A DNA stretch of 64,000 bases from Campylobacteraceae bacterium. GTDB lineage: Bacteria > Campylobacterota > Campylobacteria > Campylobacterales > Arcobacteraceae. Made by a program: the position numbers and the translations under genes. The notes beneath the pieces are model-generated. The model was not told the origin of the DNA. It did not search any database and saw only the letters and a list, made by a program, of their open reading frames with translations. Below, piece after piece: positions 27,865 through 40,261 of this stretch (its first letter is position 1; each line of letters begins with the position of its first letter). The DNA lies in assembly GCA_013215945.1 (NCBI GenBank), contig JABSOM010000003.1, positions 124,001 through 188,000 of the forward strand. The letters are read 5' to 3'.

Positions 27865-27898
27865 TTAAAGAAAAAGGAATAGCTTCCTTTTTCTTTAA
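27865..27898. terminator. Bidirectional hairpin terminator between pepA and the AraC regulator
   Basis: A perfect 15-bp stem (TTAAAGAAAAAGGAA against TTCCTTTTTCTTTAA) with a 4-base loop lies between the two convergent genes. Its right arm includes the stop codon of the minus-strand regulator. A/T-rich flanks on both sides allow it to end transcripts from either direction. Confidence 0.75.
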
Positions 27899-28836
27899 GA
27901 GTAGTATTTTATATTTTTAATACACTCTTTTGGGTTTATTTTAAACTCTTTAAAAAATGCATTTGAAAAGTTATTTGAATATTTATATCCCATTAAGTGT
28001 GCTACTTCATTTACATTATATTCTCCCTCTTCTAATAAATACTTTGCTTTTGTTAATTTATATTTTGTTAAAAATTGATAAGGACTTTGTTTATATACTT
28101 GTTTAAAGCCTTTTTTTAATTTAAACTCATTGATACATACAATTTTTGCAAGCTCAACAATTGAGGGTGGGTTTTGTAAATCTTGAAGAAGTATTTCTTT
28201 TGCTTTAAGTATTTGTTGTTTATCGTAAGTATTTAGTTTGATTGCATTTTTTGTTGCAGATATTTTATTTATTTCTAAATATAAGAGTTCTAATATTTTA
28301 CTTTGTAAAAATAGCTTATTAATTTCACTGTTATTAGAATGGGCATAGATTTCATTTAAAATTCTTTCACTCTTTACACTTGTAGGGGAAAAATCAATCA
28401 GATTAAGTTTTTTATGATTTCCATATTTATTTAAAATAGTATTTTCAAAATTTTTTTGTAAAAAATCTTCATTTACTATTAATCTAATTTGTTCAACTTT
28501 TTTGCTAGTAAACTCTCTAATGCCTTGGGAACCATCAAAAAGAGAGATGGTAGTAAATCCCTCCTTAAATTCTATTATTTCTTTTTTACCAGAGCTTTTA
28601 TAATTGGAATAACCTTTTAATCCAAATGTTATAACAAACTTTTTTTCATGTTGATTTGTTTTTATTTTCGTTGGTTTTAGAAATTCAAAATGGGTTTTTA
28701 ATAATAAAAGTCCTTCTTGAATATGCAGTTTTTCCATATAGTCTTTTCCTATATTTTTAGGAAAGGTATTCTCTAAAATATTTTCATTGGAGGAAATATT
28801 ATCTAACAATATCTCTTCTAAGTTAAGTTTACACAT
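27895..28836 (-). CDS. AraC-family transcriptional regulator (PchR/YbtA-like)
   Basis: The 313-residue protein has a non-conserved N-terminal sensing region and a C-terminal AraC double helix-turn-helix (residues about 215-310), ending in the typical NEVAHLMGYKYSNNFSNAFF and KEFKINPKE sequences. AraC regulators of the PchR/YbtA type sit beside siderophore receptor genes and activate them when the ferric siderophore is sensed. This gene is divergent from a TonB-dependent receptor gene, with 110 bp between the two starts and a Fur box in the gap. Activation of the uptake cassette is the expected role; the ligand is unknown. Confidence 0.87.
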   Translation of the reverse strand: MCKLNLEEILLDNISSNENILENTFPKNIGKDYMEKLHIQEGLLLLKTHFEFLKPTKIKTNQHEKKFVITFGLKGYSNYKSSGKKEIIEFKEGFTTISLFDGSQGIREFTSKKVEQIRLIVNEDFLQKNFENTILNKYGNHKKLNLIDFSPTSVKSERILNEIYAHSNNSEINKLFLQSKILELLYLEINKISATKNAIKLNTYDKQQILKAKEILLQDLQNPPSIVELAKIVCINEFKLKKGFKQVYKQSPYQFLTKYKLTKAKYLLEEGEYNVNEVAHLMGYKYSNNFSNAFFKEFKINPKECIKNIKYYS

Positions 28837-28879
28837 GTTTTTCCTTTTGTAATAGAAATAAAACCTTTTAGCATATTAA

Positions 28880-28894
28880 TGATATTGAATATCA
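28880..28894. promoter_or_regulatory. Fur box upstream of the TonB-dependent receptor
   Basis: TGATATTGAATATCA fits the 7-1-7 Fur consensus (TGATAATnATTATCA) with symmetric changes and is the core of a perfect 19-bp palindrome at 28878-28896. A TATAAT box at 28908-28913 lies 13 bp downstream, so bound Fur would block RNA polymerase on the receptor gene. Iron repression of the cassette is therefore likely; regulation of the divergent araC gene is also possible. Confidence 0.75.
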
Positions 28895-28907
28895 TTTTTA
28901 TCCAAGA

Positions 28908-28913
28908 TATAAT
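28908..28913 (+). promoter_or_regulatory. -10 box of the TonB receptor gene
   Basis: TATAAT lies 33 bp upstream of the receptor ATG and just downstream of the Fur palindrome. A good ribosome site (AAAGGAAG) precedes the start codon. Confidence 0.55.
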
Positions 28914-28946: not shown

Positions 28947-30947
28947 ATGATAGACCTTAAAAGTAAAACATTATTAACAATAACAAGTATTATTTTAAGC
29001 AGTAATCTTTTAGCTAATAATACTCAAAATCTTAACACAGTTACAGTAAGTGCCCAAAAAAGCATAGAGGATGTACAAAAAATTCCTATGAGTATAAATG
29101 TATTTAATGCACAAACATTAAAGAATAATACAATAACAAAACTTGATGATATTGCTTTATATACCCCTGGTTTATTACTTTTTAATACAGGAGAAGAGGG
29201 CTTAATAACTCCTTCAATCAGAGGAATATCAGGAAACATTAGTTCTTTCTCTACTCCTGTTAGTTTATATCTTGATGGTGTGCCTGTAATGAGTAGTTTT
29301 GGTTATACAAATGCTTTATTGGATGTAGAGAGGATAGAAGTATTAAAAGGTCCTCAAGGTACTTTATATGGTAATAACTCCGAAGTTGGAGTAATCAATA
29401 TAATTAGTAAAAAACCAAATAATAAATCAAAAGCTAAACTCTCAGTTATTATTGCAAATAAGGGTAAAAAAGAATATCAAGCGAATCTTTCTTTCCCCAT
29501 CATTAAAGATAAGTTTTATGTAAGCCTTGCTTTAAAGCATGAAGAAAAAGATGGTTTTATAAAAAATACCAATAGTTATCAAAAGGAAAACAATAAAGAA
29601 GGTGATTTCCAAAAGATTAATTTACGATTTACTCCTTTAGATAACTTGGATATTTCTTTTGTTGTTTCTAATAGTAAAAGAAATGATGGTTCTTTAGATT
29701 GGGCAAAAGCAGGGCAAGAAAATAATGTAGAAGTAAGCTCAAACCTAATAGGTTATTCTAAACCTAAAGAGCGAAACTATTCTTTGAAAGTAGATTATGA
29801 TATTAATAATACTAGTAAATTTACATCAATTACTGCAAAACGTAATTATAAAGAAAAAGCTGCACTAGATCTTGATTTAAGTGCTACAAACATGGCACAT
29901 ATTTACAGAGACTATGAATTTGATACTTTTTCACAAGAGTTTAAATTAGAAAAGAATTTTAAAAATACAAAGTTACTTGCAGGTGTGTATTTCTCTAAAG
30001 AAAAAGATGATATATATTTTAAAAGAGTAACAATGATGGCTCCCTTAGGAATGAGTTCGTTACAGTACTTAAACTCAAAAACATATAGTATTTATAGCAA
30101 TGTAACTACCCGAATAAATGATAAATTTAGCATAAGTGCTGGTCTTAGATATGACTATGAAAAAAAAGATTTAATCCTTGCCTCTTCTACTATCAAACTT
30201 GAAAAAGATTTTAAAAACATCTCTCCTAAACTTTCTTTTTTATATGATTTTAATGATGAATCAATGATGTACTTTACTCTAGCACAAGGTTATAAAAGTG
30301 GAGGTTTTAATGCTTTTGTATCTTTGCAAGATGAGAAAAAATTTACTGAAGAAGAATTGACTTCTTATGAGTTAGGATATAAAACATATTTGTTTAATAA
30401 CAGCGTAATATTTAATTCATCTCTTTATTATATGAATATAAATGATATGCAAGTTGAGTTAAGAGATGGCTCTAATAATCCCTATACAACAAATGCAGCA
30501 AAAGCAAAATCTCAAGGTCTAGAGCTTGAAGTGCAAGCTTTTGTAAGTGATGATATAACACTGTTTGCAAATGGTGCTTTAAATAAAACTATTTTCAAAG
30601 AGTACAAAAATAATAGCAATGATTACAGTGGGAATACTAATCCTTTTGCTCCTAAATATAATTTTAACTTAGGAGTATTATATGAAAATGTTAGTGGTTA
30701 CTTTACTAAAGTTGATTTAGCTGGATATGGAAAAACATATTTTGATCCTGCGAATAAATATTTTCAAAAAGCGTATGAGGTGGTTAATGTAAAAGTAGGG
30801 TATTCAAGTAAAAATTATGAAATCTACTTTTATGGGAAAAATGTATTTGATCAAAAACACGATGCAACGAATGTTTATCTCAATGGAACGGTATCTGTGT
30901 ATAACGATGATAAAGAATTTGGCGTTCAATTAGCGTATAAGTTTTAG
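28947..30947 (+). CDS. TonB-dependent outer-membrane siderophore receptor
   Basis: The 666-residue protein has a signal peptide (about 23 residues), a TonB-box-like NTVTVSA near residue 31, and a plug domain with DDIALYTPGLLLF, PSIRGISG and VLKGPQGTLYGNNS. A 22-strand-type beta barrel follows, containing GYKSGGFNAF and ending in aromatic Phe. Such receptors import ferric siderophores across the outer membrane with TonB-ExbBD energy. The sequence resembles receptors of the FyuA/pesticin branch, which points to a phenolate or mixed siderophore, but this is inference. The Fur box, AraC gene and inner-membrane permease form a matching set. Confidence 0.92.
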   Translation: MIDLKSKTLLTITSIILSSNLLANNTQNLNTVTVSAQKSIEDVQKIPMSINVFNAQTLKNNTITKLDDIALYTPGLLLFNTGEEGLITPSIRGISGNISSFSTPVSLYLDGVPVMSSFGYTNALLDVERIEVLKGPQGTLYGNNSEVGVINIISKKPNNKSKAKLSVIIANKGKKEYQANLSFPIIKDKFYVSLALKHEEKDGFIKNTNSYQKENNKEGDFQKINLRFTPLDNLDISFVVSNSKRNDGSLDWAKAGQENNVEVSSNLIGYSKPKERNYSLKVDYDINNTSKFTSITAKRNYKEKAALDLDLSATNMAHIYRDYEFDTFSQEFKLEKNFKNTKLLAGVYFSKEKDDIYFKRVTMMAPLGMSSLQYLNSKTYSIYSNVTTRINDKFSISAGLRYDYEKKDLILASSTIKLEKDFKNISPKLSFLYDFNDESMMYFTLAQGYKSGGFNAFVSLQDEKKFTEEELTSYELGYKTYLFNNSVIFNSSLYYMNINDMQVELRDGSNNPYTTNAAKAKSQGLELEVQAFVSDDITLFANGALNKTIFKEYKNNSNDYSGNTNPFAPKYNFNLGVLYENVSGYFTKVDLAGYGKTYFDPANKYFQKAYEVVNVKVGYSSKNYEIYFYGKNVFDQKHDATNVYLNGTVSVYNDDKEFGVQLAYKF

Positions 30948-30955
30948 GAATATAA

Positions 30956-31948
30956 ATGACAAAAAATATTAATACCTATTTACAAATGTTATTGGTTCAG
31001 CAAAAAGTTGAACTCTTAAGCATAGCTTTGAACTTTGAATTATTTAAAGCTTTAGAGGAAAAAGAACACAGCTATATTACATTAGCAAAACATATGAGAA
31101 GCAATAAGAACAATACGAAAATATTATTAGAGGGTTTAGATTTATTAGGTCTTATAAAAGAAGAGAACAATATCTATGTAAATACAAAACTGTCAAGAAC
31201 ATATTTCACTGCGGGCAAAAAAAACTATTGTGGGGATTTGTTTTTGCATAGAAAAGACTTATTATCTAAAGCCAATACAATGTTATCTTCTTTAATACTA
31301 AAAGAGAATGAAGACAACAGCAATGCAAAGCATCCAGAAGTATGGGCAAAAGCAGCCAAAAAGAATTTAAAACAAGAACAACTTAACCTTATTTCACCTA
31401 TTTCTTTAAATATTGTAAAAGAATTAAAAGAGTTTAAACATTTTAAAAAGATGTTAGATTTAGGATGCTCTTCTGGAATACTTAGTTTAGAATTTGTGAA
31501 AAATCATCCATCTATGACAGCAGTTTGTTTTGATTATAAAGAAGTTACCACTGTAGTTAAAACACATATAAAAGAGTATGACTTAGAAAATAGAGTTAGC
31601 GTGATAAGTGGTGATATTGAAGAAGATGATATTGGAAAAGGCTACGATTTTATTTGGTGCAGTAATATTTTTTATTTTATAAAAGATAATAAAAATTTGC
31701 TAAAAAAAATATACGATGCATTAAATCCCAAAGGTGTTTTAATTACTTGCCATATGGAAGAGCAGAACAATACAATGGATGAAGCAAGTTTCTTTTATTT
31801 TTTATTTTTAAATTTACAAGGAAAAAAGAGTTTAAAACAAGAAGACTTAAAAAAAGACTTCAAGGATGTAGGCTTTAAAAGTATTACTACATTAAGAAGG
31901 GAAGATTTTCCTATGACTCCTAATTATATACATATTGTAAGGAAATAA
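30956..31948 (+). CDS. SAM-dependent O-methyltransferase-like protein in the siderophore cassette
   Basis: The 330-residue protein has an N-terminal winged-helix dimerisation region (residues about 10-90, with TLAKHMRSNKNNTKILLEGL), as in acetylserotonin/CrtF-type O-methyltransferases. A Rossmann methyltransferase domain follows with MLDLGCSSGILSLEF (motif I) and YDFIWCSNIFYFI (motif IV). It would use SAM to methylate a small hydroxylated molecule. It begins 8 bp after the receptor stop and 2 bp before the permease, so it is clearly part of the uptake operon. No siderophore synthase is nearby, so its substrate may be the imported siderophore itself. That is a hypothesis. Confidence 0.78.
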   Translation: MTKNINTYLQMLLVQQKVELLSIALNFELFKALEEKEHSYITLAKHMRSNKNNTKILLEGLDLLGLIKEENNIYVNTKLSRTYFTAGKKNYCGDLFLHRKDLLSKANTMLSSLILKENEDNSNAKHPEVWAKAAKKNLKQEQLNLISPISLNIVKELKEFKHFKKMLDLGCSSGILSLEFVKNHPSMTAVCFDYKEVTTVVKTHIKEYDLENRVSVISGDIEEDDIGKGYDFIWCSNIFYFIKDNKNLLKKIYDALNPKGVLITCHMEEQNNTMDEASFFYFLFLNLQGKKSLKQEDLKKDFKDVGFKSITTLRREDFPMTPNYIHIVRK

Positions 31949-31950
31949 AG

Positions 31951-33138
31951 ATGAATGCATTACAAAAAAAGAACATACTCTTTTCTATTTTATTTATTGC
32001 TATTTTAACGCCTGTGATATTTTTTGTCATGGGTATTCCAATGATATTGCAAATGAAAGGATATGATGCAGCACTTATTGGAAGCTTTCAATTAATTGGA
32101 CTGCCTATGGTTTTTAAATTCATAATGTCGGCACCTATAGATAGGTATGTTTTTGAAAAAAGACATTATAAAAAATGGATTTTCTATAGTGGAATAGTAT
32201 ATGCTTTACTTTTGGTGTATATAAGTTTTCTTTCTTTAGAAGATAATATCTCATTGATTTTTGTGGCTATTTTTATTACGGCTTTAATATCTACCTTTAT
32301 TGATATTCCTTTAAATGCATTAGCAATAAAAATATTTACAGAAGAAGAAAGGTTTAATGCAAGTACTTATAAAGTGGCTGCATATTCTATTGCTGCAATG
32401 CTTGGAAGTGGTGTATTTCTCTTATTTTACAATCATCTTGGTTGGAGAAGTACTTTTATTCTAATGTCAGTTATGTTGCTAGTATCTTTATATATACTAA
32501 ATTTTATTGAAGAACCCGATGAGGTAATCAAAGAAGAAAAAGTTTCATTAAAGAAAATCATAAGTTTTTTCAAGCAAAAAGATATAAGTATTTGGATTTT
32601 TATCTTAGGCTTTTATTTTGCTTTTATAAGTGCCATTTGGGTTTTCATGAAACCTTATTTAATAAGCAAAGGAGTAAAAGCAGATGATATAGCAATATAT
32701 GTTGGAATTTATGGAAGTTTAATTGGATTTTTAGGAGCTTTATTAATAAGTAAATTTGCTAATAATTTTTCAAGAAAGACCTTATTATTAGCATTTATTG
32801 TATTTAATATAATAAGTGCTAGTATTTTAGTATATATTGAACAAGCAGAATTAACATTGTTTTCTTTAATTCTAAGCATTACTTTTATTGCTTTGTCAAT
32901 ATCATTGTCCTCAGCAATTATCTTTACTATGATTATGGATTATGCAAGAAAAGAAACAAGAGCCATTGATTATTCTATTCAAGCAAGTTTTTTCTCACTA
33001 ACAAGAATTATTTCCGCTGTAATAGCAGGCCTAATAATATCGACGTTCAACTTTCAAATAATGTTTATCTTTGAAACTATAGGAATGATTATTGTGTGTA
33101 TTTTCATATATAAGTTTTATAAAAGTAAAAAGAAGTAA
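31951..33138 (+). CDS. MFS permease, RhtX/FptX (AmpG-like) siderophore transporter type
   Basis: The 395-residue protein has about 12 membrane helices. The N-terminal pattern (LTPVIFFVMGIPMILQMKG, then GLPMVFKFIMSAPIDR) resembles the AmpG-like RhtX/FptX group, which carries siderophores such as rhizobactin 1021 or pyochelin across the inner membrane. It is 2 bp downstream of the methyltransferase gene and completes an outer-to-inner membrane route with the TonB receptor. Export cannot be fully excluded, but the absence of synthesis genes makes import more likely. Confidence 0.82.
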   Translation: MNALQKKNILFSILFIAILTPVIFFVMGIPMILQMKGYDAALIGSFQLIGLPMVFKFIMSAPIDRYVFEKRHYKKWIFYSGIVYALLLVYISFLSLEDNISLIFVAIFITALISTFIDIPLNALAIKIFTEEERFNASTYKVAAYSIAAMLGSGVFLLFYNHLGWRSTFILMSVMLLVSLYILNFIEEPDEVIKEEKVSLKKIISFFKQKDISIWIFILGFYFAFISAIWVFMKPYLISKGVKADDIAIYVGIYGSLIGFLGALLISKFANNFSRKTLLLAFIVFNIISASILVYIEQAELTLFSLILSITFIALSISLSSAIIFTMIMDYARKETRAIDYSIQASFFSLTRIISAVIAGLIISTFNFQIMFIFETIGMIIVCIFIYKFYKSKKK

Positions 33139-33160
33139 AAGAATATTTCTTTTACTTCTT
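33130..33160. terminator. Bidirectional hairpin between MFS and PepSY genes
   Basis: A perfect 14-bp stem (AAGAAGTAAAAGAA against TTCTTTTACTTCTT) with a 3-base loop lies between two convergent genes. It overlaps the end of the MFS gene and touches the end of the PepSY gene. Confidence 0.7.
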
Positions 33161-34700
33161 AGAATTCAAAATATTTTTTAGGTAGTTTTTTCCCTGTAAA
33201 TATTAATAATGCAGCTACTAGTAGAAGAATGATATCGCTTGCTAGAATTTGGATTAATCCTTCTTGATATAATCTTATGAACGAATATCCACTAAAAAAC
33301 TCATGTGATATTACAGCACATATTAAGAATACTGATGATAAATAACAAGTGTATTTTGTAATTTTAAATAAATCTTTTTTAAATAAAATGACTGCTAATA
33401 ATACAAGGAAACAAAGATAAAATAGTGTTTCTTGAGTACTGTATCTCTCACCCATAAAAGAGTAAAAGACAGCTGATTTTGGAATCAACCAAACACTTGC
33501 AAATAGAAAAGATGAAGAAATTAATGAACCTAAGATAATAGTAAAACTTAAAGGTTTTAATACTTTATAAGAGAACTTATCTTTTTTTGCTCTCTCCAAC
33601 CATAAGCTCATTGCAAAAACAAGTCCTATTAAAATACTAATACTAATAAAAGCAAAAATGATTCGAGGAAGATCCGAAAAAGTTCTTAAATAATGCAAAT
33701 AAAAGATTGCATCCAGTGTTTTTTCTGCAAAAGTACCATCATCAGCTATTTTTTTCTCAAGTACTTTTGCATTTGTTCCATCTAAGATGATATAACTTTC
33801 ATTGGTCATAGAACTTATAAAAAAGTTCTTAGGTTCATAACCTATGAATTTTACCCGTGAATTAATATCATTGTAATTGTATATTTCCATTTTATAAAAA
33901 GAGATATCATCAAATTCTTGCGTGGCTTTTGTATAAAGTTCATTTACGCTGATACTTTTTATTTTTTTACTTAAATCCATGTTTTTTAAAGCAGGATCAA
34001 ATAAAATATTTCTTTTTGTTTGTAAAGCATTTAGGGTTTCACCTTTTGTTAAATAATGCGTTAATAAAGGGGAACTGTAAAGACCTAAATTAAACAATGC
34101 TCCTGTTATTCCAAACATAAAAATTAAAGGAAGAGTATAAAAAAATAAAAGCCTGTGATATTTTGCATAAAAAGCTTTATTGGATTTTGTTTTTTTATTG
34201 CTGTATTTGTTTTTTATGATTAATAAAATGCCAGAAAAACACAAAAATACGACAGCAACAGACATAAAACCAAAGAGTATTTTAACTAACAAAGAATTGA
34301 ATAACCCGCCTGTGTGCATTTTATCAAAAAACTGAGATATTTTGAAATTCTTAGGCCTTACTCTTTTACAGGTATTGGGATCTAAATAAAAGTTAGGTCT
34401 GTTTCTTACTCGAATCAAATTTGTAGCGCTTACTTCGATACTTGGAAAAGACAGACTAATGATATCATTTCTAACTTTTTTCCCATCTTCTCCAAAATAA
34501 GTTCTTTTCGTAATTTGTTTAAGGCATTTGTCTAAATCTATATCGCTTATTTTTATATCATTTACATGTTGTTTTGAATCTTCCCATGTATTTACATAGG
34601 GTTGAAAAATAGTTAATATTCCAAAAAACAAAGAGATAAAAAAGAATAAGAGAACATTTACTCCAATAAACTTGTGTATATTAAACAGTCTTTTTTTCAT
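33159..34700 (-). CDS. PepSY-associated membrane protein, probable ferric-siderophore reductase
   Basis: The 513-residue protein has several membrane helices: one at the N-terminus (residues about 13-32), a pair in the middle, and a group of four to five at the C-terminus. A large periplasmic PepSY-type region lies between. Proteins of this PepSY_TM family (FoxB, FpvG, FchR types) reduce ferric siderophores to release iron. Conserved His residues within helices (FNIHKFIG, MHTGG, YAKYHRLL, LHYLRTF) could bind heme. A good ribosome site (AAGGAAAACA) precedes the ATG. It converges on the MFS gene and follows a small membrane protein gene. Confidence 0.82.
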   Translation of the reverse strand: MKKRLFNIHKFIGVNVLLFFFISLFFGILTIFQPYVNTWEDSKQHVNDIKISDIDLDKCLKQITKRTYFGEDGKKVRNDIISLSFPSIEVSATNLIRVRNRPNFYLDPNTCKRVRPKNFKISQFFDKMHTGGLFNSLLVKILFGFMSVAVVFLCFSGILLIIKNKYSNKKTKSNKAFYAKYHRLLFFYTLPLIFMFGITGALFNLGLYSSPLLTHYLTKGETLNALQTKRNILFDPALKNMDLSKKIKSISVNELYTKATQEFDDISFYKMEIYNYNDINSRVKFIGYEPKNFFISSMTNESYIILDGTNAKVLEKKIADDGTFAEKTLDAIFYLHYLRTFSDLPRIIFAFISISILIGLVFAMSLWLERAKKDKFSYKVLKPLSFTIILGSLISSSFLFASVWLIPKSAVFYSFMGERYSTQETLFYLCFLVLLAVILFKKDLFKITKYTCYLSSVFLICAVISHEFFSGYSFIRLYQEGLIQILASDIILLLVAALLIFTGKKLPKKYFEF

Positions 34701-34708
34701 TGTTTTCC

Positions 34709-35002
34709 TTAAAAAATGTATAAAATAGAGTATAGAATGAATGCCGGTAAGATGGCTTTTAAGATGGCGATAAATTTAGTTTTGGACATGATTATGTAAA
34801 GTGATGCCGCTGACCAAAAGAATGGAAGAATAATTATTCCAATCACAATATTTTCAAATATTGAGTACTGCAGTTGTTCTGAGATTAGCATTATTAGAAA
34901 ATAAGAAACAAAAAGACCTCCAAAAATGGAGAAGAATATTCTTATAAAACCTAAGGTGCTATTATTGTCTTTTAAAAAAATAGTTTTGATTATTTTATTC
35001 AT
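34709..35002 (-). CDS. Small membrane protein upstream of the PepSY reductase (DUF3649-like)
   Basis: The product of about 97 residues has three predicted membrane helices with FGGLFVSYFLIMLISE and GIIILPFFWSAASLYIIM. This pattern resembles small iron-transport-associated membrane proteins (DUF3649-like) found before PepSY genes in other proteobacteria. The ATG at 35002 is preferred over a GTG at 35011 because AAGTGAG lies just ahead of it. It is 8 bp upstream of the PepSY gene. A long inverted repeat with Fur-like half sites lies directly upstream. Exact function is unknown. Confidence 0.65.
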   Translation of the reverse strand: MNKIIKTIFLKDNNSTLGFIRIFFSIFGGLFVSYFLIMLISEQLQYSIFENIVIGIIILPFFWSAASLYIIMSKTKFIAILKAILPAFILYSILYIF

Positions 35003-35013
35003 TTTACTCACTT

Positions 35014-35248: not shown

Positions 35249-35305
35249 GGAACTGGTCTTCGTATGACGCTTGAGTTCTTAAATAATTACCCTTCATGCG
35301 GATAA
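35249..35305 (+). pseudogene. Remnant of an M17 aminopeptidase (pepA) 3' end
   Basis: Reading from 35249, the frame gives GTGLRMTLEFLNNYPSCG and a stop at 35303-35305. This matches the C-terminus of PepA (GAGVRMTVEFLKN) in the intact gene near 27793-27835; about 38 aligned bases show only a handful of mismatches, with TTCGTATGAC and TTGAGTTCTTAAA identical. There is an in-frame stop just upstream, so it is not part of a working gene. It overlaps the 3' end of the minus-strand MocA-like gene. The remnant and intact pepA bracket the siderophore cassette. Confidence 0.7.
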
Positions 35306-35853
35306 TCTATATCTTCAATAACACCAATATCATCTACATTTAATATTTTGTATGAAAGTTTATTTTCTTTAATCACTTGATTTGCACCTTCTTGGTTTTT
35401 TATTTTACACAGTTCTTCAAAAAAATTATTTCCAAAAAAAACAGGATGCCCAACAATATTTTCATACTTAGCCCTTACAATTAGGTTCTTTTTTTGGATA
35501 TTTTGTAATGCAGTGATGGTTTTCTTTTTTATATTTGGCATGTCTGCTAAAAATATAGCACAAGACTCATACATAATGGCACTTTTTTTGATTTGTTGTA
35601 TGCCTACAGAAATACTAGTACCTAATGAAATATCAATGCTAGGAGCTTGTATTAAGGCAATATTAATATTCTCAAGTAAAGAAATCAGTTTTTTATCTTC
35701 ATATCTGTGGACTAAATAAATAGAATCAAAGGTTTTACATATATTTTTTAAAGTTCTTAAAATAAGTAATTCTTGTCCTGAGAAACGTTTATCACTTCCA
35801 TAACGTTTAGAAAAACCAGCCGCTAAAACTAAAGCACATGTATTTTGTTTCAT
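35287..35853 (-). CDS. mocA: MobA-like nucleotidyltransferase (MocA-type molybdenum cofactor enzyme)
   Basis: The 188-residue protein has the NTP-transferase start LVLAAGFSKRYGSDKRF, the metal-binding FLADMPNI and the GHPVFFG motif typical of MobA/MocA enzymes. MocA adds CMP to molybdopterin, giving the dinucleotide form used by xanthine-dehydrogenase-family enzymes. It overlaps the xdhC start-side neighbour by 4 bp (ATGA) and sits in the same minus-strand operon as a molybdenum hydroxylase, which favours MocA over MobA. The 3' end carries bases shared with the pepA remnant. Confidence 0.82.
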   Translation of the reverse strand: MKQNTCALVLAAGFSKRYGSDKRFSGQELLILRTLKNICKTFDSIYLVHRYEDKKLISLLENINIALIQAPSIDISLGTSISVGIQQIKKSAIMYESCAIFLADMPNIKKKTITALQNIQKKNLIVRAKYENIVGHPVFFGNNFFEELCKIKNQEGANQVIKENKLSYKILNVDDIGVIEDIDYPHEG

Positions 35854-36824
35854 AAGGTGTGACGAAGAGATATTAATTCAGCAATAATAGAAACAGCAAT
35901 TTCAGTTGGTGTTTGACTATGAATCATAAGACCAATAGGTGCTCTTAATTTTGACAGTATTATTTCATTCATGCCAGCATTTTTTAATCGTTTAGTTCTT
36001 TTGTTATTATTTTTACTAGACCCAATAGCACCTACATAAAAAGCATTTGAGTTTAGTGAAAAAGAAATTGCATCATCATCAATACTTGGATCATGTGCTA
36101 AAGCAACAACAGCTGTATGTTTATCTACGCGTTTTCTAACAAATAAATCAGATGCTTCTTTACACAATTCAAAATTATTATTTACTCCTTCATAGACTAA
36201 ATTGTCCAAAAATAGTTTTCTATTTTCACATAATTTAACATAAAATCCCAAGTCACTGGCTTGTTTCGCTAAGTGTTTTGCTACGGGTGTAGCTCCAATA
36301 ATAAGCACTTGAATAATAGGGAAATAAGTAATTTGTATACTCTTTTCATTTTTAATTACATTTTTTTCTTCTGATTTATAATACTCTGGAAGTGTTATAA
36401 ATGTACTTTTATTATTTTCTTTGTTGATAGTTCTTTGAAACCCAACACGCTTTTTAATTAAGTCATTCCATATTAGAAAGTTTTTTAACATATCACTTGA
36501 AGGAGTGATTTTTTCAACTAAAAGCGTCACATTTCCACAGCAAGGCAAACACAAGTTTTTCTCTTTATTTAAGAGCTGATTTCCATAGGTAAAAGTAGTA
36601 ATATCTTCTTTAAAATAACCTTCATTCAAAAGTTCGCAAAACGCATCATCGCTTCTTGGTTCTGAAATAAAACCTATTTTATTTGTGCCATCATAAGCAA
36701 AAATAGAGCCTAATGGACGTACAGAGGCACCTTTTGCAGAAATAATAGTACAAATAAAAAAATCTTTTTTTTCTTTTATCCATTGTATGGCAGATTTAAT
36801 TATAAGAGCTTCATATTTTTGCAT
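35850..36824 (-). CDS. xdhC: XdhC/CoxI-family molybdenum hydroxylase maturation factor
   Basis: The 324-residue protein has the N-terminal XdhC/CoxI domain (GASVRPLGSIFAYDG, then LCLPCCGNV) and a C-terminal Rossmann domain (VLIIGATPVAKHLA, later GAIGSSKNN and PIGLMIHSQTPTEIAVSI). XdhC binds sulfurated molybdenum cofactor and inserts it into xanthine-dehydrogenase-type enzymes. It lies between the mocA-like gene and the catalytic subunit genes, which is a usual order. The final motif is strongly conserved in the family. Confidence 0.92.
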   Translation of the reverse strand: MQKYEALIIKSAIQWIKEKKDFFICTIISAKGASVRPLGSIFAYDGTNKIGFISEPRSDDAFCELLNEGYFKEDITTFTYGNQLLNKEKNLCLPCCGNVTLLVEKITPSSDMLKNFLIWNDLIKKRVGFQRTINKENNKSTFITLPEYYKSEEKNVIKNEKSIQITYFPIIQVLIIGATPVAKHLAKQASDLGFYVKLCENRKLFLDNLVYEGVNNNFELCKEASDLFVRKRVDKHTAVVALAHDPSIDDDAISFSLNSNAFYVGAIGSSKNNNKRTKRLKNAGMNEIILSKLRAPIGLMIHSQTPTEIAVSIIAELISLRHTL

Positions 36825-36926
36825 GACGTGAACCTTTTATAATTACATCTTTTAAGAGTTTTAGAAAAGAAATTTTTTTTGTAAACAAAGAAGGTGTATA
36901 CTCTTCTTTGTTTATAAGTACATTAA

Positions 36927-37457
36927 CTAAAATGTTAAACCTTTTGTTTCTAAAATAAGTTTTTTCATTCCAGAATAATATTTTGCGTAACCCGTACATC
37001 TACAAATATGTTCCCCTAAGTTATCTTCAATTACTTTTTGAACATCATTTTTATTAATAGGCTTTGTTTTTAACTTATCCATTAACAACGTTGCTTCATT
37101 TACAAAACCAGATGTACACCATCCACATTGAAAAGAAAATTGTTTAATAAATGCTTCTTGAACAGGGTTTAAGGATATAATATTATTATTTTTATCTTTT
37201 TTTGCATGTCCTTCAATAGTGGTTATTTTTTTATTATTAAAAACAGAACTAGGGTTAATACATGTTCTTTTTACCTCTTTTGATCCATCCTCATTTTCTA
37301 CAATAATAACACAGGCATTGCATATACCCATTCCACAGCCAAATTTAGTACCTGTTAAGTTTCTAAATTCATGTAAATACTCAATCATCATCACTTCTTG
37401 AGGTATTTCTATGGGACCAATTTTTTTTCCGTTAATAGTGAATGTTAATTTACTCAT
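36927..37457 (-). CDS. [2Fe-2S] subunit of a molybdenum hydroxylase (CoxS/IorA-like)
   Basis: The 176-residue protein has a plant-ferredoxin cluster (CGMGICNAC, Cys41, 46, 49, with Cys66) and the second helical-domain cluster (CGWC at 111-114 and CRC at 152-154). These two clusters carry electrons from the molybdenum site. There is no signal peptide, while the partner large subunit has a Tat signal, so it is probably exported as a folded passenger. It lies 2 bp after the large-subunit gene. No FAD subunit is encoded nearby. Confidence 0.92.
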   Translation of the reverse strand: MSKLTFTINGKKIGPIEIPQEVMMIEYLHEFRNLTGTKFGCGMGICNACVIIVENEDGSKEVKRTCINPSSVFNNKKITTIEGHAKKDKNNNIISLNPVQEAFIKQFSFQCGWCTSGFVNEATLLMDKLKTKPINKNDVQKVIEDNLGEHICRCTGYAKYYSGMKKLILETKGLTF

Positions 37458-37459
37458 AA

Positions 37460-40261
37460 TTATATTTCCTTTCTTATATCTTCTGGTGTAACAGGTAAGT
37501 GATAAAATCTTTTATCAATAGCATGGTTGATTGCTTCAACAATAGAAGCAACAACAGGAATCATTACAACTTCAGCTATACCTTTACTTGGGTCTGATTT
37601 ACCTAAAGGAGGAAGTAAGGTATAGTTCATATTCCAAACCCCAACATCTCTTGCTCTTGGAACGTTATATCGATCTAGATTCCATGTTCCATTTCCCGCA
37701 CCATCTTGACCTAGTGGCAAACTCTCATATAATGTGTGTCCAATTCCCATTGCCACACCTCCGTGAATTTGACCCTCGACTAAATCTTTGACTAAAACAG
37801 TTCCTGGTTCTAACCAAGTATGTGTATCGAGAATTTCTACTTCTGCACTTTTTTTATTTATGCTTAATTCAACCAAAGTAGCACAAGGTGCAAGGTAAGT
37901 AACCATTGCATTTCCAATAGCGGTCGTTGGGTAAGTAACATTTTTTCTATTAATTATTGTAAATTCTTTAGACTTTTTACCATATTTAGTAGCTATTGCA
38001 TCTGCATAAACTTTTTGTGTTGTACCATTAATATCAAACTGGGCACTAGCCCATGCCCATCTGTTAAAACCATGAGACATTACAGCGGTAAGTAATCCCA
38101 TTTCATGTGCTTTTTTTGCCAGTGTTTTTAAATCTATTGGAGGAAATCCAGAAGCTGATAATTTCCCATTTTTCCATGAAGCTGTATGATAATCACCAAA
38201 ATTAGCATTTGCATAAGCATTGTTGAAATATTTTGTTTTCCAAATCTCAATAGCTGCTGGATATAATCCATGTTGTAAAATCAATTTTGCACATAAGTCT
38301 GTTGTATGTGTTTGATAATATGAAGACATAGATGCCGCAGATGCCATCGTCACAGAAGGTGTCCATTGTGGATTTTTTTCTTCTTTATCTTGTTGTTTTT
38401 GTGAAATGAAATATGGATTGTGTGTTTCAAAGAGTTTTAATATTTTGAAATCACTTATTTCAGCCATTACTACTTCATCCGCCATGCTTCCTAAGTATTT
38501 ACTTACTAAAGCACCCTGTGCTGTATCCGTACCAGGTCCCATTTCAATATAACCCACTTTAACAATAATTTCTCCATTAGGGGTAATTTCAACACTTGAA
38601 CTAGGAGCGGCCGCTCCTGTGCCATAATCTTTTGTAGCAATACTGTATCCCACCCCATATTTTTTACTTGGATTTTCTTTTTCAAATTGGATTTTTTTAC
38701 TGTGTCTATTTTTCCAAATTGTATGTTTCTCTCCCAACTCTAACATTTCTAAATATCGGTAATCTCCATTTGGAATGGCACCTTGAGTATTTTTATCTCC
38801 TGCTTTAGATGCATTAATACGTCTTAATGCAATAGGATCAATGTTTAAATCACTGGCTGCTTCATTCATCATCATTTCCATTGCTGCCATTGTTTGTAAG
38901 GTACCAAAACCTCTCATTGAGCCAGCAATAGGCATGGAAGAAGGATAAACACTTGCTAAAAGATCTGTTCGTGGTAGATAATATATACTTTGCATAGCAC
39001 TAAGCCCTACCATTGTTACAGGACCAGAAAAGTTTGCTCGACCTCCTCCATCAATAGTGGCATCAGTAATTAAACCCTTGATTTTTTTGGTTTTTTTATC
39101 AAAAGCTAATTTAGTATTAATAACAAAAGGATGACGTTTAATTCCTGATTGAAATTGTTCAAATCTGTTATTAGATAAAGAAATAGCATTTTTAGAATAT
39201 AATAAACTTAATAAACCAAAGTATGGAAAAGGAGTATGGTCTTTTCCTCCGTATCCTCCACCAATGTAGGGAGAGTGAATGACTAAATCTTTAACTTCTT
39301 TACCCTTAGGTGAAGCAGCTAACATTTCTCCTGCTTGTTTATAAAAATCCCCAGGAGATTGTGTACAAATTACCATATGAATGGTTTTGTTTTTTCTATC
39401 ATACCAGCCATTAAATGCTTCAGCTTCCATCATCACAGGATCAATAGAAGGAGTAGTAAATGTTTTGTTAACTACATGCCAGTCTTCATTTTTGATATCG
39501 TTATGCAGCTCATTTGCATAATGCATAGCTTGATGGATACTATCGCCTTTTACATTACCTTTAGGCCAAACTGCTTTGTTATTTTTAATATTTGGAAAAA
39601 TAAGACCATTTTGTAAAGGACTGTATTTGTCTTTTAAAAGTCCTTCTTCTCGTATAATTCTCCATGTTGAATAAGGTGCTTGTTTAGCACTTACTAAAGG
39701 ATGAATAGCGTTAGAGTACTTGATTATTTTATCACTGTTTTGTAAGCTATTTTTTGCATTCTTAAAACTTATAAAATCATCATAAACTAAAACAGCAACT
39801 TCTTGACCTTCATAAGCTGGTACTTTTCCTGCGGGTAATAACATATCATTACCAAAAAAACTAGGAAAACCAATTTTATCTTTTGCAAGTGTTTGGGCTG
39901 TAATAAGTACAGCTGGTTTCATTTCATTACTTAATGAAGAAAAATCTAAACCTTCAAATACTCTGTTTGCTTTATTGACTCTTAGTATAAAAGCATAAGA
40001 TTGTTTCTTTGGCCATCCTTTTATATCTTGTGATCTATAGTCTCTTCCATAAATCTTCTCACCAGTAACTTTAGCAATAGCATCGAATCTGAATTTAGGT
40101 TTTCCTAAATCTCCTTTCCAATCATTTTGTAGGAGTGTTGTATTTGTATATTCTTTAAATTTATCTGAACTAAATAGCATTGGAGCACTATAAATAGTGA
40201 TACCACCAATGACACATTGTTTCAAAAATCCTCTACGTGACAAATTATTAGGAGTTTGCAT
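37460..40261 (-). CDS. Tat-exported molybdopterin-binding large subunit (xanthine dehydrogenase/aldehyde oxidase family)
   Basis: The 933-residue protein begins with a Tat signal (SRRGFLKQ at residues 8-15 followed by a hydrophobic stretch). It has molybdenum-cofactor motifs of the IorB/PaoC type: GGYGGKDHTPF, SMRGFGTLQ, EMGPGTDTAQGAL and, near the end, GIAEVVMIPVVASI with the likely catalytic Glu897. It would oxidise an aldehyde or N-heterocycle in the periplasm and pass electrons via the [2Fe-2S] subunit to a cytochrome or other acceptor. The true substrate is unknown. It is divergent from a two-component system. Confidence 0.9.
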   Translation of the reverse strand: MQTPNNLSRRGFLKQCVIGGITIYSAPMLFSSDKFKEYTNTTLLQNDWKGDLGKPKFRFDAIAKVTGEKIYGRDYRSQDIKGWPKKQSYAFILRVNKANRVFEGLDFSSLSNEMKPAVLITAQTLAKDKIGFPSFFGNDMLLPAGKVPAYEGQEVAVLVYDDFISFKNAKNSLQNSDKIIKYSNAIHPLVSAKQAPYSTWRIIREEGLLKDKYSPLQNGLIFPNIKNNKAVWPKGNVKGDSIHQAMHYANELHNDIKNEDWHVVNKTFTTPSIDPVMMEAEAFNGWYDRKNKTIHMVICTQSPGDFYKQAGEMLAASPKGKEVKDLVIHSPYIGGGYGGKDHTPFPYFGLLSLLYSKNAISLSNNRFEQFQSGIKRHPFVINTKLAFDKKTKKIKGLITDATIDGGGRANFSGPVTMVGLSAMQSIYYLPRTDLLASVYPSSMPIAGSMRGFGTLQTMAAMEMMMNEAASDLNIDPIALRRINASKAGDKNTQGAIPNGDYRYLEMLELGEKHTIWKNRHSKKIQFEKENPSKKYGVGYSIATKDYGTGAAAPSSSVEITPNGEIIVKVGYIEMGPGTDTAQGALVSKYLGSMADEVVMAEISDFKILKLFETHNPYFISQKQQDKEEKNPQWTPSVTMASAASMSSYYQTHTTDLCAKLILQHGLYPAAIEIWKTKYFNNAYANANFGDYHTASWKNGKLSASGFPPIDLKTLAKKAHEMGLLTAVMSHGFNRWAWASAQFDINGTTQKVYADAIATKYGKKSKEFTIINRKNVTYPTTAIGNAMVTYLAPCATLVELSINKKSAEVEILDTHTWLEPGTVLVKDLVEGQIHGGVAMGIGHTLYESLPLGQDGAGNGTWNLDRYNVPRARDVGVWNMNYTLLPPLGKSDPSKGIAEVVMIPVVASIVEAINHAIDKRFYHLPVTPEDIRKEI

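Follow-up and report, generated by a model that had tools for sequence, protein, structure and literature searches.

Organization of the import operon

Why would an operon that appears to import a siderophore, and that carries no genes for making one, encode a methyltransferase? The question is raised by a 64,000-nucleotide stretch of a Campylobacteraceae genome (hereafter, the window), in which the first-pass annotation had placed a methyltransferase gene between those of a TonB receptor and a permease. The genes are indeed arranged in this way, all three on the + strand and separated by exactly 8 bp and 2 bp. The first encodes a TonB-dependent, FyuA-like outer-membrane receptor (28947..30947; PF00593 and PF07715), the second a class I SAM-dependent methyltransferase (MT) of the PF00891/COMT type (30956..31948; 330 aa, ATG start), and the third an MFS inner-membrane permease of the AmpG/RhtX/FptX group (31951..33138) that also matches AmpG structures. 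A Shine-Dalgarno-like AGGA precedes both the MT and the MFS genes. Divergent from the receptor gene, on the - strand, lies the gene of an AraC-family regulator (27895..28836; HTH_18, 3.8e-16), whose role may resemble that of PchR or YbtA.

Downstream, a hairpin that is terminator-like on the - strand (33130..33160) separates the MFS gene from a convergent one encoding a PepSY_TM membrane protein, a possible reductase (33159..34700, - strand; PF03929, 1.4e-30). We considered the latter as a member of the cassette and rejected it, since it is missing beside the other cassettes. Together with a 100-aa protein (window 33159-35011, convergent with the cassette), it resembles a receptor-linked pair of Arcobacter cloacae (25% and 33%, respectively). 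Further on, positions 35287-40261 hold a molybdenum-hydroxylase gene set, called from translations only, with a MocA-like protein, an XdhC-like protein, a 2Fe-2S subunit, and a large subunit carrying a Tat-like signal.

Conservation of the cassette

The gene order is not a peculiarity of this strain, which the first-pass annotation had named as an outcome that would refute its hypothesis. Orthologs of MT (46 to 55% identical) were found in 4 of 60 relatives, each time in the order receptor-MT-permease, and with the AraC gene where the contig was long enough. Within Campylobacterota, the same order recurs at 16 loci outside the window, among about nine sets of neighbors and in other genera and families, with AraC orthologs divergent from the TonB receptor in the other cassettes. 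MT orthologs were present in 11 of the 397 genomes sampled from the class and permease orthologs in the same 11; neither gene occurred without the other in this sample. A single-sequence scan of genome contigs gave no matches, and an alignment-based scan gave eight loci, all from Campylobacterota. The dN/dS of MT in close pairs (0.11 to 0.28) is similar to that of the neighboring genes and indicates purifying selection. This selection and the gene order kept across genera and families argue that the receptor-MT-permease arrangement is not due to chance. The distances of MT, receptor, and permease are correlated (r of 0.82 to 0.90), which shared ancestry alone could produce.

Several cassettes are damaged or rearranged. 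Among the 11 genomes, the assembled contigs show an interrupted MT frame in one (G170:C1:302252-303237, L061) and, in a second, a permease gene divided by an insertion (G371:C1:2613583-2616088, L059). Between loci L048 and L054, identity is 93% for MT, 82% for the receptor, and 67% for the permease, and the MT and MFS genes of L048, L049, and L054 suggest a mosaic cassette produced by internal recombination. On the Arcobacter cloacae plasmid pACLO (L078:2517-7441), a different receptor/PepSY operon is followed by a C-terminal remnant of the cassette permease (58% identical across 143 aa), with no MT there.

Beyond Campylobacterota, the spread of the cassette is known from plasmid records only. 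A plasmid of Vibrio nigripulchritudo encodes the AraC regulator, receptor, MT, and MFS permease in the order of the window (29, 32, 27, and 28% identity, respectively), followed by a second MFS protein of the CynX/NimT group. Azospirillum plasmids show the order AraC-MFS-receptor-MT; their permease was rejected as a homolog of that of the window, as it gave no BLAST match and resembles drug-efflux MFS proteins. On a Pantoea plasmid, MT lies beside a divergent AraC gene only, without receptor or permease, which counts against a role in import. A plasmid of Trichlorobacter lovleyi (L067:5557-12324) encodes BzaF, a PF00891-like MT, and a TonB receptor with an ExbB-like protein, among cobamide genes.

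A shared promoter with AraC- and Fur-like elements

The region between the AraC and receptor genes carries, on the + strand, a pair of 12-bp direct repeats (CCTTTTAGAATA-like, 21 bp apart; 28843..28875), presumably the AraC operator, that is kept across genera. When up to three mismatches were allowed, 8 of the 11 genomes had a single site with the repeat pair, and in seven of these eight it was at the cassette promoter. The eighth site precedes an ExbB/ExbD/TonB-like operon, close to a second receptor resembling FyuA. That receptor (L108:4136-7389, genome G376) is 38% identical to the one in the window and has a divergent AraC gene and no MT; the repeat-bearing ExbB/ExbD-like operon comes after it.

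Next to the repeats, a Fur-like palindrome (TGATATTGAATATCA; 28880..28894, + strand) matches 12 of the 14 positions of TGATAATNATTATCA (shuffle p of about 0.03). It covers the -35 element of a sigma-70-like promoter, TTGAAT-17-TATAAT (28885..28913, + strand; 10 of 12 matches, in a promoter scan that overall found sites no more often than in shuffles), of which the -10 element is conserved in relatives as TATACT or TATAAT. The palindrome is kept in most Campylobacterota cassettes. Single-locus shuffles gave a p of only about 0.01 to 0.03 in most loci and no significance in some; the argument for the box is its conservation. In the Vibrio cassette the box matches at 13 of 14 positions, a score that none of 500 shuffles reached. 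Both elements of an AraC- and Fur-controlled cassette, the direct repeats and the Fur-like box, are present as sequence in the shared promoter, and the cassette is probably iron regulated.

Receptor, permease, and probable ligand

Among solved structures, the best relative of the receptor is FyuA (4EPA, E value of 1.4e-60 over nearly the full length; next best, 7e-27), far ahead of the heme and B12 receptors, with a direct identity of only about 26%. Its closest relatives after that of Vibrio are cyanobacterial receptors, which are nearer to it than FyuA is, so its ligand may differ from ferric yersiniabactin. The permease had been called FptX-like. This is fair as a likeness but does not extend to family membership, since the protein scores 64.6 bits against the RhtX/FptX model (TIGR02718), far below the cut-off of 356; the AmpG model (TIGR00901) gives 104 bits, also under its curated cut-off.

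The description of the locus as an import operon without synthesis genes stands: none occur nearby, and searches of the genome of the window for NRPS condensation domains and for IucA/IucC gave no matches. The ligand is therefore probably foreign. The neighborhoods of receptor and permease relatives give some indication of its class. One cyanobacterial receptor relative sits in a cluster with a salicylate synthase, NRPSs, and a YbtPQ-like ABC pair. This locus, on Chroococcidiopsis plasmid pB (L080), also carries a tryptophan 7-halogenase-like gene and P450s beside the TonB receptor and resembles a cluster for a halogenated salicylate siderophore. A permease relative of Acaryochloris is encoded with genes for DHB synthesis and NRPSs. 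YbtPQ-like ABC pairs, together with an RhtX-like MFS protein, also lie beside six Campylobacterota cassettes, and the pairs tested were 34 to 41% identical to that of the salicylate cluster. Given these relatives in salicylate-NRPS and DHB-NRPS clusters, a phenolate or catecholate siderophore would suit the cassette and is our best guess for its ligand.

Ligands vary in these receptor and permease families, as two other neighborhoods indicate. On a Halotia branconii plasmid (L081), a ligase, a TauD-type dioxygenase, an FcoT thioesterase, an ACP, and an NRPS, a set of the isonitrile lipopeptide type, are divergent from a FyuA-like receptor and an MFS protein related to those of the cassette. 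On a conjugative plasmid of Bacteroides xylanisolvens (L077:4852-10891), a TonB receptor and an AmpG/RhtX-like MFS gene are in line with hemN and hemG, in what looks like a porphyrin-import cassette.

The methyltransferase and its active site

MT matches PF00891 (E value of 5.6e-15; 55.7 bits, above the curated cut-off of 22.3), and no second member of this family was found in its genome. MT matches the dimerization domain PF08100 only below the cut-off, and no signal peptide is apparent. The SAM motif LDLGCSSG (ending at residue 174) and the acidic D193 are intact, and D168, G170, and D193 are invariant among 14 homologs. An AlphaFold2 model (mean pLDDT of 80.7) matched RedM, DsyB, 2R3S, BchU, SibL, and the holomycin methyltransferase DtpM, a fold group whose members use aromatic, heterocyclic, or thiol compounds as substrates. 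Between them, the matched enzymes transfer methyl groups to O, N, S, and C, so the name O-methyltransferase is a family label rather than a finding, and the acceptor atom need not be oxygen.

The column of the usual catalytic His (the LHDW position) holds Tyr240 in the Campylobacterota MTs and His in that of Vibrio. Active PF00891 members without this His are known, RedM included (PMC10784701). Another residue, His266, is present in all cassette-linked MTs, at a column where RedM, PigF, 2R3S, and DsyB carry Glu or Asp. The window MT shows the signature as IWCSNIFYF and H266-M-E268. The combination of IW[CA]S and His266 was found in all seven cassette-linked MTs and in none of seven other plasmid-borne homologs, in a small sample of non-independent sequences, some of which are those in which the signature was first noticed.

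A model for iron release and its alternatives

The reading that we prefer, with a probability of about 0.5, is that the cassette is a xenosiderophore-uptake module whose cytosolic MT methylates the imported ligand and so weakens its hold on iron. The first-pass annotation had proposed methylation of a phenolic or catecholic oxygen that frees the metal or detoxifies the ligand; this idea is coherent and partly supported, in that MT belongs firmly to an uptake cassette under apparent iron control, and the chemistry is a hypothesis. Iron starvation would lift Fur repression, and the divergent AraC regulator would switch on the receptor, MT, and permease, with the ferric ligand, once imported, as its probable coactivator. 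Receptor and permease would then carry the intact ferric ligand, probably capped by a phenolate or catecholate, into the cytoplasm. FptX brings ferripyochelin into that compartment, where this complex activates the AraC-type PchR (PMC9774294), and by analogy the imported ligand could meet a cytosolic MT.

In the cytoplasm, MT would methylate the ligand at a phenol oxygen, a carboxylate, or a thiol. Coordination to a metal makes a phenolate a poor nucleophile, so a direct attack on the bound form is chemically less likely, and any iron release by methylation alone would be indirect. The most likely substrate is the ligand in its apo form, which MT would methylate as it loses the metal, so that release could not be reversed. 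Methylation would then have four consequences: chelation would be weaker, iron release would be driven, the ligand could not rechelate cellular iron, and the inducer would be removed. To our knowledge, most import systems of the FyuA/FptX type have no MT, which counts against the model, as do the Tyr in place of the usual catalytic His in Campylobacterota and the variety of ligands in the receptor and permease families. A wider form of it seems doubtful: in at least three bacterial classes, the IW[CA]S/His266 subfamily would methylate a metal-binding oxygen of phenolate siderophores after import and thereby free their iron, so that methyl transfer would join reduction, hydrolysis, and acetylation as a route of iron release.

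MT might instead inactivate a toxic chelator or siderophore-like antibiotic that enters with the nutrient, iron supply being secondary. Spm of Staphylococcus aureus, which is reported to methyl-esterify pyochelin and to lower ROS, would fit such a role, as would the place of DtpM in the fold group of MT and the transport of PQS-iron by FptX. A pure detoxifier, however, would not need to be welded to an importer, and the importer and the Fur-like box imply that the cassette is switched on for ligand uptake; we regard detoxification as unlikely. Alternatively, MT could turn an imported or host-derived precursor into a methylated metallophore or signal of the cell's own that is then re-exported. 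Many PF00891 enzymes do tailor biosynthetic products, and the CynX/NimT-type protein after the Vibrio cassette could be read in this sense, but with no exporter conserved alongside the cassette and neither an NRPS condensation domain nor IucA/IucC in the genome, tailoring is very unlikely. There is as little chance that the ligand is a tetrapyrrole, an isonitrile lipopeptide, or another chelate and MT a C-, N-, or S-methyltransferase, as the Bacteroides and Halotia neighborhoods and the structural match to BchU might suggest, for the receptor is far nearer to FyuA than to solved heme and B12 receptors, and BchU is not the best match of MT but a middling one by both sequence and fold, which led us to lower a BchU-like tetrapyrrole C-methyltransferase as a candidate.

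Uptake followed by methylation of the ligand, if correct, would bear on a gap in siderophore biology. For pyochelin and similar phenolate siderophores, the way in which iron is set free from the periplasmic fraction is still described as unexplained (PMC9774294). MT, conserved as a fixed member of its cassette, is a concrete candidate for phenolate iron release. Siderophore methylation, so far reported as a defense against a competitor's pyochelin, would also be part of piracy. The signature residues and the cassette order provide a handle for finding more such systems in unannotated genomes.

Comparison with known systems

The claim that no system of this type had been described is too strong. 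We found no description of the cassette itself in the open-access literature, but siderophore methylation and enzyme-aided release have precedents, and the idea is less new than first thought. MT shares with the PF00891 enzymes RedM, DsyB, SibL, PigF, BchU, and DtpM the two-domain fold, the SAM motif, and a dimerization-type N-terminal domain; it differs from them in the Tyr/His240 column, the invariant His266, the IW[CA]S motif, and the import-cassette context. With the uptake systems for pyochelin (FptA/FptX/PchR) and yersiniabactin (FyuA/YbtPQ/YbtX/YbtA), the cassette has in common a FyuA-group receptor, an RhtX/FptX-like permease, an AraC regulator, Fur-like control, and, in some relatives, a YbtPQ-like ABC pair nearby. 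Unlike them, it has no synthesis genes, has an MT inserted between receptor and permease, and has a permease that falls under the RhtX/FptX cut-off.

The closest chemical parallel is Spm, whose methylation of pyochelin lowers iron binding (PMC11130421, PMC11449898). SAM-dependent methylation with this effect is reported for Spm and would, under our model, apply to MT. Spm is described as esterifying the carboxylate of pyochelin and as protective in S. aureus, whereas the MT gene is a constant member of an operon dedicated to TonB-dependent import. For the placement of the enzyme, the nearest parallel is the FiuA/FiuB/FiuC system of Pseudomonas aeruginosa, a TonB uptake system with its own group-transfer enzyme for the siderophore: FiuC acetylates ferrichrome in the cytoplasm as part of iron release (PMC7699141). 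Like that system, the cassette encodes its group-transfer enzyme together with a TonB receptor; FiuC acetylates a hydroxamate siderophore, whereas the cassette combines a methyltransferase with a FyuA-like receptor.
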